From Deltaproteobacteria bacterium (lineage in GTDB: Bacteria > Myxococcota_A > Polyangia > DRWM01): a DNA stretch of 34,539 nt. The notes under the pieces were generated by a model, which made no database searches, was not told where the DNA came from, and was given only the letters and a program-made list of their open reading frames with translations. Made by a program: the position numbers and the translations under genes. Shown piece by piece: positions 9,221 to 13,445 of this stretch. The stretch covers positions 1 through 34,539 of the forward strand of contig JAFDER010000005.1 of the NCBI GenBank assembly GCA_019310245.1. Direction: 5' to 3'. Position 1 is the first letter of the stretch. The number at the start of each line of letters is the position of its first letter.

Positions 9221-9532
9221 ATGTACGCGATAATCGAGACCGGCGGCAAGCAGTACAGGGTCGAGAAGGGCATGCAGATCCACATCGAGAAGCTGCCCGG
9301 CGAACCGGGGGACAAGCACGTCTTCGAGCGCGTGCTCCTCGTCGGAGACGAGAAGGACACGCGCATCGGCACGCCGATAGTGAAGGGGGCCGAGGTCTCG
9401 GCCAAGATCCTCGATCAGGGCAAGGCGCCGAAGGTGCTGGTCTTCAAGATGAAGCGCCGCAAGAAGTACAGGGTGAAGCGGGGACACAGGCAGATGATGA
9501 CGTTCGTCGAGATCACCGGCATCAAGGGGTGA
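9221..9532 (+). CDS. rplU: 50S ribosomal protein L21
   Basis: At 103 aa this is the standard L21 length. The start [17 protein letters not shown], the central VLLVGDEKD...IGTPIV and the basic [18 protein letters not shown] followed by TFVEITGI are diagnostic for L21. The ATG at 9221 was chosen over an upstream in-frame GTG (9125) because L21 conservation begins exactly here and AAGGAA lies 11 nt upstream. L21 sits in the large ribosomal subunit and binds 23S rRNA. It is followed 4 bp later by rpmA, the usual pairing. The next usual partner obgE is absent here. Confidence 0.98.
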
Positions 9533-9536
9533 AACG

Positions 9537-9791
9537 ATGGCCCATAAAAAAGGTCAGGGAAGCTCTCGCAACGGAAGGGACTCGCCCGGTCAGAGAAGAG
9601 GAGTCAAGCGCTTCGGCGGCCAGATCGTCAGGGCCGGCAACATCCTCGTCCGCCAGCTGGGCACCCGCATCCATCCCGGTCGCAACGTGGGCATGGGCCG
9701 GGACTACACGCTCTTCGCGCTGATAGACGGGACCGTCCACTACGAGACGATCCGCAAGCGCAAATACGCCCGCATCGATCCCCCCATGTAA
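9537..9791 (+). CDS. rpmA: 50S ribosomal protein L27
   Basis: At 84 aa, this has the full L27 signature: [20 protein letters not shown] at the N-terminus, then [20 protein letters not shown] and [20 protein letters not shown]. The N-terminal tail reaches the peptidyl-transferase centre and stabilises tRNA; there is no Firmicutes-type cleavable extension. The ribosome-binding site AAGGGGTG overlaps the end of rplU, so the two are co-translated. Downstream there is no obgE; instead a 126-nt RNA-like hairpin starts 61 nt after the stop codon. Confidence 0.98.
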
Positions 9792-9852: not shown

Positions 9853-9978
9853 TTTCCGCGAACGAGATGCAAGCCAGGCAAGGAAGCGACGAGGCTCGCG
9901 AGGGAGCGTACTCCGGGTACGCGACCGAGCGAGCAGAGGAAGCTGACGCCGCATGGCGCAGCATATCGTTCGCGGAAA
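9853..9978 (+). ncRNA. Long rod-like RNA element with repeated tandem G-A pairs, 3' of rpmA
   Basis: A 13-bp perfect outer stem (9853-9865 with 9966-9978) is followed by ATGC/GCAT (9867-9870 with 9961-9964). Further inside are GGC/GCC (9877-9879 with 9948-9950), CGA-type pairs near 9886/9943, GCTCGC/GCGAGC (9894-9899 with 9929-9934) and a terminal GCGTAC/GTACGC hairpin (9906-9911 with 9917-9922) with a 5-nt loop. Between these helices, tandem GA/AG steps occur at 9883-9884/9945-9946, 9888-9889/9939-9940, 9892-9893/9935-9936, 9900-9901/9927-9928 and 9904-9905/9923-9924. Such pairs are stable only in RNA of the plus strand, which would be the 3' end of the rplU-rpmA transcript. No U-tract follows, so it is not an ordinary terminator. 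Similar GTAC-hairpin intergenic elements are known to me in other proteobacteria, from memory only. Function unknown. Confidence 0.5.
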
Positions 9979-10027
9979 AAAAAAGGCTCGGCGAGTGAGG
10001 TTGGGGGGGGACCTACTCATCCGAGCC
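9976..10027 (-). terminator. Intrinsic terminator of the outer-membrane barrel gene
   Basis: On the minus strand GGCTCGG (10027-10021) pairs with CCGAGCC (9991-9985), with further inner pairs ACTC/GAGT and ACCT/AGGT around a C-rich loop, followed immediately by nine Ts (9984-9976). It lies about 205 nt after the stop of the minus-strand barrel gene. On the plus strand the same hairpin lacks a T-run. Confidence 0.7.
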
Positions 10028-10232: not shown

Positions 10233-11180
10233 TCAGAACGCGAAGTACTTGACCGACAGGACGAGGCGCAGGTCCCTGAGATGGTCGAACCCCTCGTTGA
10301 CCTCGTAGCTGAAGCCCGCCTCGAGGGCGCCCTTCTTCCCCACGTAGCCCGCACCCGCATGGATCGAGTGCGAGCCCGTCAGATCGCTCCAGGCGTACCC
10401 GGTGCGCAGGGGCCAGTGATCGGCGATGAACGCCTCGGCGCCGATCATGTACCGCGGCCACACCTTCTCGTCGCTGTCCAGGAGCTTCCTGCCGCTCCAG
10501 AAGTCGAGAAGGACGTCGAACGAGACCTGGAAGATGGACACCTGGGCGTAGATGCTCAAGCCCAGCATGATCGGCGCCAGGGGGGACTTGATGTGCGTGA
10601 GGTTGTAGCCCACGACGGCGATGCCGAGGTGGTTCCTGATGATGCGGATCGTCAGCCCCGCATCCAGCGAGAAGTGGCTCAGGTCCCTCCCGTAGGGATT
10701 GAGATCGGCATCCGGCTCGAGCTCGTCCGGACGGGGCGTGTCGATCTCGGCCCGCTTGTAGTGAAGGCTCATGCCGAGGCTCAGCTGCGGGATGATGGCG
10801 TAGGCGAGCCCGAGGAAGAGGTTGTGGAGCTGCAGCTCGCTCGACTGCTTGCCCTCGCCCACGAACTTGAAGAAGTAGCCGAGCCCCATCCCGAGCCGCG
10901 ACGTGATCGAGTCCACGACGCTCGCCCCGACCATGTGCATGTCGTACTTGTCGTCGAAGATGTAGGAGCTCTCGACGTGATAGGACTTGCTCATGGCGAT
11001 GCCGGCCGGATTCATGTACAGGGCGGAGGTGGCGAAGGCGCTCGCCCTCAGGGCCCCTCCCATGCCGAGCGAGCGGGCGTCCATGAGCTCGAAGTCAGTG
11101 GCATGGGCGGGGCGGGCCACGGCGAGGAGCGAGGCCGCAGCGAGCGCGACCGCCACCAGCATCTTCCGGTCCGCCAACAC
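10233..11180 (-). CDS. Outer-membrane beta-barrel protein with NPAG motif (315 aa)
   Basis: The start chosen is GTG at 11180, with AGGAAGGAG 9 nt upstream; ATG at 11162 is an alternative. The frame extends further upstream to 11378 but that part is antisense to tRNA-Ser and is rejected. A signal peptide ends near ARPAHA. The mature N-terminus MDARSLGMGGALRA...ALYMNPAGIA is the typical opening of PorV/FadL-like outer-membrane barrels. It is followed by alternating amphipathic strands with aromatic ends (VESSYIF, RLGMGLGYFFKF, LHNLFLGLAYAI, LSVKYFAF), with a terminal Phe as expected for Bam-dependent insertion. Role could be hydrophobic substrate transport or a secretion accessory; not resolvable from sequence. 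It stands alone with its own terminator. Confidence 0.8.
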   Translation of the reverse strand: MLADRKMLVAVALAAASLLAVARPAHATDFELMDARSLGMGGALRASAFATSALYMNPAGIAMSKSYHVESSYIFDDKYDMHMVGASVVDSITSRLGMGLGYFFKFVGEGKQSSELQLHNLFLGLAYAIIPQLSLGMSLHYKRAEIDTPRPDELEPDADLNPYGRDLSHFSLDAGLTIRIIRNHLGIAVVGYNLTHIKSPLAPIMLGLSIYAQVSIFQVSFDVLLDFWSGRKLLDSDEKVWPRYMIGAEAFIADHWPLRTGYAWSDLTGSHSIHAGAGYVGKKGALEAGFSYEVNEGFDHLRDLRLVLSVKYFAF

Positions 11181-11263
11181 GCGAATGCACTCCTTCCTCG
11201 TCACTGTATAACGGAAGCGCGTGACGGGGATCCAATATTCCGACGGCCACGGGGCGGTTTCCC

Positions 11264-11291
11264 TTGAAATGGAAGCGTGGATGTCTATCAT
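11264..11291 (+). promoter_or_regulatory. Promoter of tRNA-Ser
   Basis: TTGAAA (11264-11269), 16 nt, then TATCAT (11286-11291). The expected start site is within one or two bases of the tRNA 5' end at 11299. Confidence 0.6.
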
Positions 11292-11298
11292 CGGCCCT

Positions 11299-11386
11299 GG
11301 AGAGATGGCCGAGCGGTTGAAGGCGCCAGACTCGAAATCTGGTGTGCGCCCTGTGCGTACCGTGGGTTCGAATCCCACTCTCTCCG
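11299..11386 (+). tRNA. tRNA-Ser (anticodon CGA)
   Basis: The acceptor stem GGAGAGA (11299-11305) pairs with TCTCTCC (11379-11385), with discriminator G at 11386. The anticodon stem CCAGA/TCTGG encloses the loop CTCGAAA, giving anticodon CGA for codon UCG. The T arm carries GGTTCGAATCC, and a long variable arm (class II) is present, as required for serine. The CCA end is not encoded. The gene is convergent with the lipoprotein gene, whose stop codon is only 7 bp away. Confidence 0.95.
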
Positions 11387-11393
11387 CCCGGGC

Positions 11394-13445
11394 CTAGGAA
11401 GGCGGGCCGCCCTCGATGACGGGCGGCACCATGAAGTAGACCTCCCGGGTGTCGAGAACCGTGATGGAGTCGCCTATCACCTCGACGTAGGCGATGAAGA
11501 CCTGGGGCTCGTCCGTGGCCGGAACGGTCATGTTGCGCTCGGGGTAGATGTCGAAGCAGACCGTGGTGCCGGGAAGGACGTCGACGAAGAGGTCGGGGTA
11601 GGTGTCGCCGTCCGTGTCCGCGGCCGTGAGTCCTCCCACGCAGACCATGGAGGGATCGGTGGGATCCGCCACGCCGCCCACCGTGTTGGGCACGATGCGG
11701 TCGATGAACACCGTGGCGTCCACGCCATCCGTGTCGTCGTCGCGGCCCACGGCGGAGATGTCCATGGGAACGTTGTGGGCCAGGGTATCGATGGCGTCCA
11801 CCACCTCGGTGCCGAGGCCCGTCCCGCTCGAGCTGATGCCAAAGACGAGCGGCGTGCCCGTGATGTCCACGGCACCCGTATCCGTCGCGATGGAGGTGCA
11901 GTGGCCGGTGACGTCGCCGTAGCCCGGGCTCCAGATCCCGATCACCTTGGCGTGGATGGCGTTGAGCGCCGTGACCGCCTCGACGTAGGTGGGGGGCGTG
12001 GGCGAGATGCCCGAGTAGGCGTCGAACCCGCCCGGGCCGTTGTGGAATGTGGCATCCGTGATGAGCACGATGATGGGCACGGCGCCCGAGCGAAAGCACG
12101 GGTAGCCCATCTCGCCGGACACGCAGGCCGTGGTCCCCGCAAGGTACGATCCGAGCCCCAGCCCCGTGGCCGTGGCCCACAGGGCCGGCACGTCGCTCTC
12201 GGAACCGTCGGCCCCGTAGTGTGTGCCGAGGGCGTTGACCGCGGCCTGGGCGTCGCCGGGCACCGACGTCATGCGCTGGTTGAGCTGGAAGACCACGTCG
12301 CCCGAACCGGCGCTGCCGTAAGGCGAGACGGGGTAGTCGTCGAACCGGCCCACGCCGAACCAGACGTCCGGGATGAGCGTGGCCACGCTCGGGATGATCG
12401 TGGACGAGAGGCTGCTCCTGAGGTTCGCGATCTCGCCTCCCATGCTCCCGGTCGTGTCCATCACGAAGAACACGTCCGCCATCTGGATGTCGGTGGAGAA
12501 GACGAGCGTGTCCATCGACGGGTCGGGATCCTCGTCGAAGGGAACGAGGAAGTAGAAGTTGCCCTCGGAGAGGGGGTTCGAGTCGGCGTCGAGCGGATCC
12601 GTCCCGGCACCGACCTCGATGAGGTCGGGGGCCCCGTCGCCGTCCGAGTCCTCGTTGTACGGGTCGAGCCCGTTCTCGAACTCCCACCTGTCGCCCAGCC
12701 CGTCGTTGTCGGAGTCCAGGTCGCGGAAGTCGGGCGTTCCGTCGCCGTCCGTGTCGCGCGGCCAGGTGGAGATGTCCTCGTCCCCGGCCTCGGTGGCATC
12801 CGGGATCCCGTCACCGTCCGTGTCCAGGTCGTGGCGGTCGACGATGAGGTCGCCGTCCACGTCCGACTCGGCGGGACGCTCCTGCTGGTCCGAGATGTTG
12901 TCGTTGTCCGAGTCCAGGTCCATGTAGTCGGGGACGCCGTCGCCGTCGAAGTCCACGGGCGCGGAGGGGTCCCCGCCGATCTCCGTGCGGTCGTCGATGC
13001 TGTCACCATCGTTGTCAAGATCCGCGAAGTCGTGCACGCCGTCACCGTCCGTGTCCGCCCATCCCTCGGACACGTCCAGGATGCCGTTGCCATCGCTGTC
13101 CTGGTCGCGGAAGTCGGGCGTCCCGTCCCCGTCGGCGTCGCGCGGAGGGCTCCACGTGTCCGTGTCCCCGGCCTCGATGGAATCGGGAATCGTGTCGCCG
13201 TCCGAATCGCTGTCCTCGAAGTCCGGAGTCCCGTCCCCGTCGGTGTCGGTGCCCTCCATCCTGCCCTCGTCGTCGTCCGCGATCGTGTCGCCATCCGCGT
13301 CGGGGCGGGGCATCAACGAATCGGTCGACGTGTCGAGCCCCTCGGTGAACCCGTCATGGAGCGTGAACGGCGATTTCGTCCCACCGCACGCGATGAGGGT
13401 GACGGCCAAGAGCGCGAGGGTGCAGTGAACTGCTCGATGTGACAT
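11394..13445 (-). CDS. Lipoprotein with thrombospondin type-3 repeats and a von Willebrand A domain (683 aa)
   Basis: The signal peptide ends in a lipobox (LIAC, Cys20), so it is anchored as a lipoprotein, probably in the outer membrane. Residues about 46-290 are a run of calcium-binding Asp-rich repeats of the thrombospondin type-3 kind (DADGDG-x-PD and DLDSDNDG spacing, ten or more copies). A VWA domain begins near residue 323 with the metal-site motif DTTGS (Asp330 to Ser334) and includes LITDATFH further on. The C-terminal region (about 560-683) is beta-rich. VWA domains bind protein ligands through a divalent metal, so a role in surface adhesion or recognition is likely (inference). The ribosome-binding site AGGAAGGA precedes the ATG at 13445. 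The 3' end abuts tRNA-Ser on the opposite strand. Confidence 0.9.

Follow-up and report, generated by a model that had tools for sequence, protein, structure and literature searches.

ERIC repeats have been known since 1990–91 and are the basis of ERIC-PCR typing. They have, to our knowledge, no known mobiliser, and functional data on them are only partial. Published work assigns ERIC to Enterobacteriaceae and Vibrionaceae (PMC10969869, PMC2267715) and reports TA duplications at its insertions (PMC2759123, which also prints the 127-nt sequence of an E. coli ERIC). In Yersinia, as cited in PMC2229807, ERIC makes the transcript upstream of it less stable, in a way that depends on its orientation. 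Among the open-licence papers searched, we found no report of relatives of ERIC in other phyla.

The locus described here lies in a window of 34,539 nucleotides, which opens a contig of a deltaproteobacterial draft genome (4.58 Mb, 70% complete). A 126-nt palindrome separates the rplU-rpmA operon from a convergent gene and is very probably an ERIC-like (IRU/RU-1-type) non-autonomous mobile element. Its parts and neighbours are as follows.

9221–9532, plus strand: rplU, ribosomal protein L21 (Pfam PF00829, E = 2.6e-38)
9537–9791, plus strand: rpmA, ribosomal protein L27, upstream of the element (Pfam PF01016, E = 1.7e-37)
9853–9978, plus strand (the GA strand): whole ERIC-like element, 126 nt, a single rod (fold z-score, same-genome copies, covariance-model matches)
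9853–9865, plus strand: 5' outer arm, pairing perfectly with 9966–9978
9879–9949, plus strand: conserved core of 71 positions, CAAGG to ACGC, the basis of models R1 and R2 (R2 E = 1.3e-18)
9880–9884, plus strand: 5' half of the distal joint (AAGGA), facing 9945–9950; counterpart of AAGG/AACGC in E. coli ERIC
9900–9928, plus strand: apical hairpin with two tandem GA/GA steps (GAGGGAGCGTACTCCGGGTACGCGACCGA)
9945–9950, plus strand: 3' half of the distal joint (GACGCC), facing 9880–9884
9966–9978, plus strand: 3' outer arm, pairing with 9853–9865
9976–10027, minus strand: intrinsic terminator of the convergent outer-membrane gene, abutting the element (hairpin of −23.8 kcal/mol, z = −4.8, then U9)
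10233–11378, minus strand: convergent gene, weakly like outer-membrane beta-barrel proteins (Pfam OMP_b-brl, E = 5e-5, under the curated cut-off)

The element starts 61 nt past rpmA on the same strand. A pattern scan, whose loop limit is below 9 nt, listed nothing terminator-like from 9791 up to the element; the same scan missed the minus-strand terminator at 9976–10027 because its 9-nt loop exceeds that limit. The run of nine A at the element's 3' edge is the U-tract of that terminator. The true start of the convergent reading frame may lie downstream of the annotated one, and near this gene a minus-strand frame at 11394–13445 is predicted to encode a large protein with many DxDGDG-type repeats.

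The 126-nt rod with a 13-bp outer stem, read originally from the letters alone, proved real. The plus strand of 9853–9978 folds at −71.3 kcal/mol, against −43.1 ± 3.5 in 200 dinucleotide shuffles, none of which matched it (z = −8.1), and direct reading of the outer stem confirmed 13 perfect pairs (computed arms, 18 nt at 94%). Five internal steps do carry G-A pairs as described, but only three are exact GA/GA (9883–9884 with 9945–9946, 9900–9901 with 9927–9928 and 9904–9905 with 9923–9924). The other two are variants, GA/GAA (9888–9889) and GAG/AGA (9891–9893), and spacings of 3, 1, 6 and 2 bp fit only loosely the "regular intervals" that had been claimed. The GTAC-type tip is there too, in a stem of 9906–9912 with 9916–9922 that holds GTAC...GTAC. 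It was also right that this is no normal terminator: on sequence reading no U-tract follows the hairpin on either strand, and the terminator scan of the element was empty. The suggested comparison with Rfam (release 15) gave no family, neither above the gathering threshold nor in a permissive search. Strong folding, at z = −5.7 in each case, is also seen in the minus strand and in single-stranded DNA, so the fold alone cannot tell which molecule matters. Tandem G-A pairs form in DNA as well as in RNA.

A DNA search of the same genome turned up another three clear copies, located on contigs C662, C517 and C571, at 79–84% identity. The outer stem of the C662 and C517 copies differs from that of the window (TTCTGC...GCAGAA) but pairs with itself, and each of these two copies adjoins a TAG stop codon, read on the non-GA strand, beside unrelated genes. 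Three of the four clear copies lie between genes; both this and the stop codons were read by eye, without a gene finder. Two covariance models were used, R1 of the 71-nt core and R2 from 105 sequences (alignment A3), most of them collected by an exact tip pattern; E-values from these models are rough. R1 added a weak fifth copy on contig C35 (3e-4). Among 144 genomes of the window's class, 34 matched R1 at E ≤ 1e-3 and 39 matched R2 at E ≤ 1e-4, and four genomes of the same order had zero R2 matches. The covariance-model search that had been proposed thus turned up further copies both at home and in related genomes.

The original prediction mentioned similar elements from other proteobacteria, which was correct but too narrow. 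In even samples, at E ≤ 1e-4, R2 matched 9 of 99 Bacteroidota genomes, 13 of 143 from Gammaproteobacteria, the class to which a Lysobacterales genome belongs, and, for the phylum that includes a Clostridia genome, 10 of 150; the many sampled genomes without a match serve as a control for false positives. The exact tip pattern, GGAGCGTAC-N3-7-GTACGTGACCGAG, occurs among the matches listed in Clostridia, Porphyromonas, Bacteroidales, Lysobacterales, Sporosarcina, Verrucomicrobia, Sandaracinaceae and others, host names that in many cases come from draft metagenome bins and may include foreign contigs. Nearly all of the pattern-found copies printed out folded into the same interrupted rod. Copy number by R2 ran from 1 to at least 150 per genome in 18 tip-pattern genomes. 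Such a patchy spread with a few heavily loaded genomes is as expected of mobile DNA, and the dispersed copies bear out "mobile palindromic repeat", one of three guesses first offered. Plasmid and phage collections held no DNA similar to the window element.

Several unusual forms were seen along the way. In one Clostridia and one Bacteroidales genome, three to five elements stand in tandem at spacings of about 125–140 bp (L279:8-451, L352:1322-1771, L360:1425-1906, L277:11005-11380). At L268:7092-7203 an extra hairpin is inserted in the apical loop, the remaining core being intact. The core of L029 (genome G140) and L050 (genome G113) is shortened to some 50 nt while the outer arms are very long, and these short-core forms have several near-identical copies per genome. 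A looser tip pattern matched 52 IMG/VR viral contigs (L174–L225), candidate kin of the core family.

What the copies share is the core. In alignment A3, both sides change in some sequences at 19 of 20 pairs, and double-change cells number 286, whereas shuffling the partners leaves 91 and sliding them leaves no more than 59; this pattern is the compensatory change, with G-A steps kept, that the original prediction had asked to see. The GA/GA step beside the tip stem is present in 98/105, 32/38 and 86/107 copies of three sets, although in the first it is partly imposed by the search pattern, as is tip conservation in A3 generally, most of whose sequences were gathered by the exact tip pattern. 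The 22 specified bases of that pattern are identical across phyla. The distal joint, some 20 nt beyond the pattern, is nevertheless common to the relatives, and 97 of 104 sequences retain its G-C pair.

The arms behave differently. Left and right 40-nt flanks pair with each other at a median of 24–27 pairs, versus 8–12 after right flanks are swapped between copies. Swapping within a genome, in five genomes, lowered the pairing from 27 to 21, 23 to 18, 26.5 to 21, 23 to 14 and 25.5 to 23. Since pairing drops even within one genome, each copy has arms fitted to one another. Self-fitted arms of this kind could arise without selection by template switching at palindromes, a process that can also make paired changes in inverted repeats, so covariation alone is no proof of selection on an RNA. 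Template switching should, however, erase the G-A steps; their persistence suggests that they are kept by selection. An origin of the arms from the target site was considered and is unlikely in the Clostridia genome G152, where arms vary and the sequence outside is shared. Three Porphyromonas loci (L290, L295, L303) differ from the others among L287–L306 in having different outer arms around the usual core. The window element thus belongs to a dispersed family whose folded core, made up of a tandem G-A tip and an AAGG/AACGC joint, is conserved, and whose self-complementary arms are copy-specific.

The core of E. coli ERIC is the same core. Read as its reverse complement, ERIC runs from AA/GCA through one pair, GC/AA, three pairs, further steps and GA/GA to a tip stem of GCTTAC/GTAAGT, an order of loops and stems that is also that of the window rod. 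R1 matches an ERIC locus at 3.6e-6 (0.8 kb searched), and R2 matches two E. coli ERICs, at 1.2e-5 and 2.6e-5, with no other match in 52 kb. Neither model was trained on E. coli or other known ERICs; the R2 set includes some gammaproteobacterial (Lysobacterales) relatives. Aligned directly, the window element and ERIC score above 1000 of 1000 shuffles (z = 4.6), a modest similarity by sequence only. A bridge between the two forms is locus L385 (genome G374, Gammaproteobacteria sample), a 127-bp element starting TATACCC and ending GGGTATT, in which this end and ERIC-type arms (z = 12.2 to ERIC) are joined to a window-type GTAC tip (GGGAGTGTAC...GTACATGACCGA). An ERIC-type core in distant phyla appears to go beyond the literature searched, in which ERIC belongs to Enterobacteriaceae and Vibrionaceae.

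Other lineages carry other ends. In two Porphyromonas genomes most copies end GAGA[A/C]TGTTGCAC...GTGCAACAGTCTC, terminal repeats that match those of ISPg4, of the IS5 family (Table 2 of PMC4596501). An exact target duplication of at least 4 bp, mostly 5, flanks 17 of 23 of these copies, compared with 7% in shuffled pairs. When the same gene was compared between the two genomes, the element stood beside it in both, with differing surroundings. One core with differing ends and duplications suggests a module carried by different transposition systems.

Siting was surveyed in four moderate-GC genomes; high-GC genomes were left out because spurious long ORFs make gene calls unreliable there. Only 10 of 86 element sites (12%) fell inside long ORFs, compared with 74% of random positions. 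Between co-directional neighbours, the GA strand was antisense to both genes at 31 sites and sense at 4 (p = 3.5e-6), a count that rests on simple ORF calls and in which the direction of replication is not separated from that of transcription. Pattern-found loci show a similar lean (24 to 8; without Porphyromonas and one loaded genome, 14 to 5). Sites between convergent genes numbered 24 and between divergent genes 10, with enrichment near 3' ends. The window copy, at a convergent site with its GA strand sense to rpmA, has an arrangement that is common. The original choice of the plus strand as the functional RNA is not supported, given the antisense excess, the folding of minus-strand RNA and single-stranded DNA, and the ability of DNA to form G-A pairs.

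We picture the arms as transposition ends that would be served in trans by whichever transposase a lineage supplies. The core would be a separate module, retained because its folded shape, as RNA or single-stranded DNA, is needed, perhaps for recognition by a factor or for rendering insertions next to genes harmless. At the window locus the element would be transcribed with the rplU-rpmA 3' end, because the opposite gene's terminator sits just before it, and by analogy with Yersinia ERIC it might affect the stability or 3'-end processing of rpmA mRNA. On this host effect and on the role of the core we are tentative, and less sure than on the element's identity.

The enrichment near 3' ends and the excess of convergent over divergent sites would also fit an ERIC-like element that has been domesticated as a bidirectional terminator or 3'-end stabiliser, its mobility historical and its hairpin marking the ends of transcripts. 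The stop codons adjoining the C662 and C517 copies, and arms with A-runs and T-runs in some families (G157, for example), point the same way. U-tracts are, however, missing from the arms of most families, and the window copy has none on its GA strand and has a separate terminator at its side. Domestication is possible, if on the doubtful side; it is compatible with a mobile palindrome, the sole difference being the reason for the copy's retention.

The core might instead work purely at the level of single-stranded DNA, folding into a hairpin that a transposase or recombinase recognises, and RNA would then play no part. The significant DNA fold, an orientation bias that disfavours GA-strand RNA, and conservation of the core across elements with different ends are all consistent with this. 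Against it, the ends and 5-bp duplications in Porphyromonas point to an ordinary IS5-type enzyme working on terminal repeats, and ERIC has its reported TA duplications (PMC2759123); we regard a DNA-only role as unlikely.

Far less probable is a cis-acting structured RNA of the rplU-rpmA operon, a 3'-UTR stability element or ribosomal-protein regulator with the GA strand functional. Its closeness to rpmA on the same strand, with no terminator listed before it, and the better fold of the GA strand (z of −8.1 versus −5.7) are what such an RNA would show, but other copies stand beside unrelated genes, the GA strand is mostly antisense in other genomes, and the four same-order genomes lack an R2 match. 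A single-copy cis-RNA of rpmA was rejected on the dispersed copies. Independent convergence, in which long hairpins of many bacteria came to share GTAC tips by chance, starts from the ease with which self-complementary GTAC arises and is the most improbable reading, given 22 specified bases exact across phyla, a shared distal joint outside the search pattern, and E. coli ERIC found by a model that never saw it.

With the element read as a mobile ERIC-like palindrome, the range of its core takes in Bacteroidales, Clostridia, Verrucomicrobia and Sandaracinaceae-type genomes; arms are copy-specific, and in one lineage the ends are of IS type. The chances seem to us evenly balanced that ERIC is just one branch, the enterobacterial one, of a pan-bacterial superfamily whose single tandem-G-A core moves among unrelated terminal repeats and transposases. 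If so, the core would be the unit of inheritance, and either a factor conserved from phylum to phylum would read it or it would make insertions beside genes tolerable. Its wide distribution offers a comparative handle on which part of ERIC is needed, on what moves it and on its one-orientation siting at gene ends, and may bear on the amplification by ERIC primers from unrelated bacteria. No Rfam family covers the ERIC-like core.

Among other described repeats, REP, BIME and REPIN elements are likewise dispersed intergenic palindromes. REPs are 20–40 bp, many with GTAG or CGTC tags (PMC3733652); both tags are absent from the plus strand of 9853–9978. The multicopy, partly palindromic intergenic families of Geobacter are alike by description, and from the accounts in PMC2700814 and PMC2996986 they may be relatives of the window family. 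IS5-type MITEs of Porphyromonas (MITEPgRS/MITE464, ISPg4) resemble our Porphyromonas relatives in ISPg4-like ends (GAGA[A/C]TGTTGCA...TGCAACAGTCTC) and 5-bp duplications, a likeness judged via the ISPg4 ends; the window copy has other arms.

Set against ERIC itself, the window element differs in its ends (TTTCCGCG/CGCGGAAA versus TATACCC/GGGTATA), its tip stem (GCGTAC versus GCTTAC), a second tandem GA step, and sister copies far outside Enterobacteriaceae and Vibrionaceae. No target duplication, including one of the ERIC-type TA, was seen on reading the sequence beside the window copy. Because the strict ERIC ends and TA duplication are absent, we call the element ERIC-like and not ERIC. ERIC (IRU, RU-1) is an imperfect palindrome of about 127 bp forming one long hairpin, and the window element is a single rod of 126 nt. 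ERICs are dispersed and mainly intergenic (PMC2759123, PMC2229807), and the window family has four clear copies in a 70%-complete genome. Both have a distal joint, AA/GCC, one pair and GA/GA in the window and AA/GCA, one pair and GC/AA in ERIC. The ERIC tip, GGAGCnTAC...GTAnGTGAC with its GA/GA step, has its counterpart in the window's GGAGCGTAC...GTACGCGACC, one base off.
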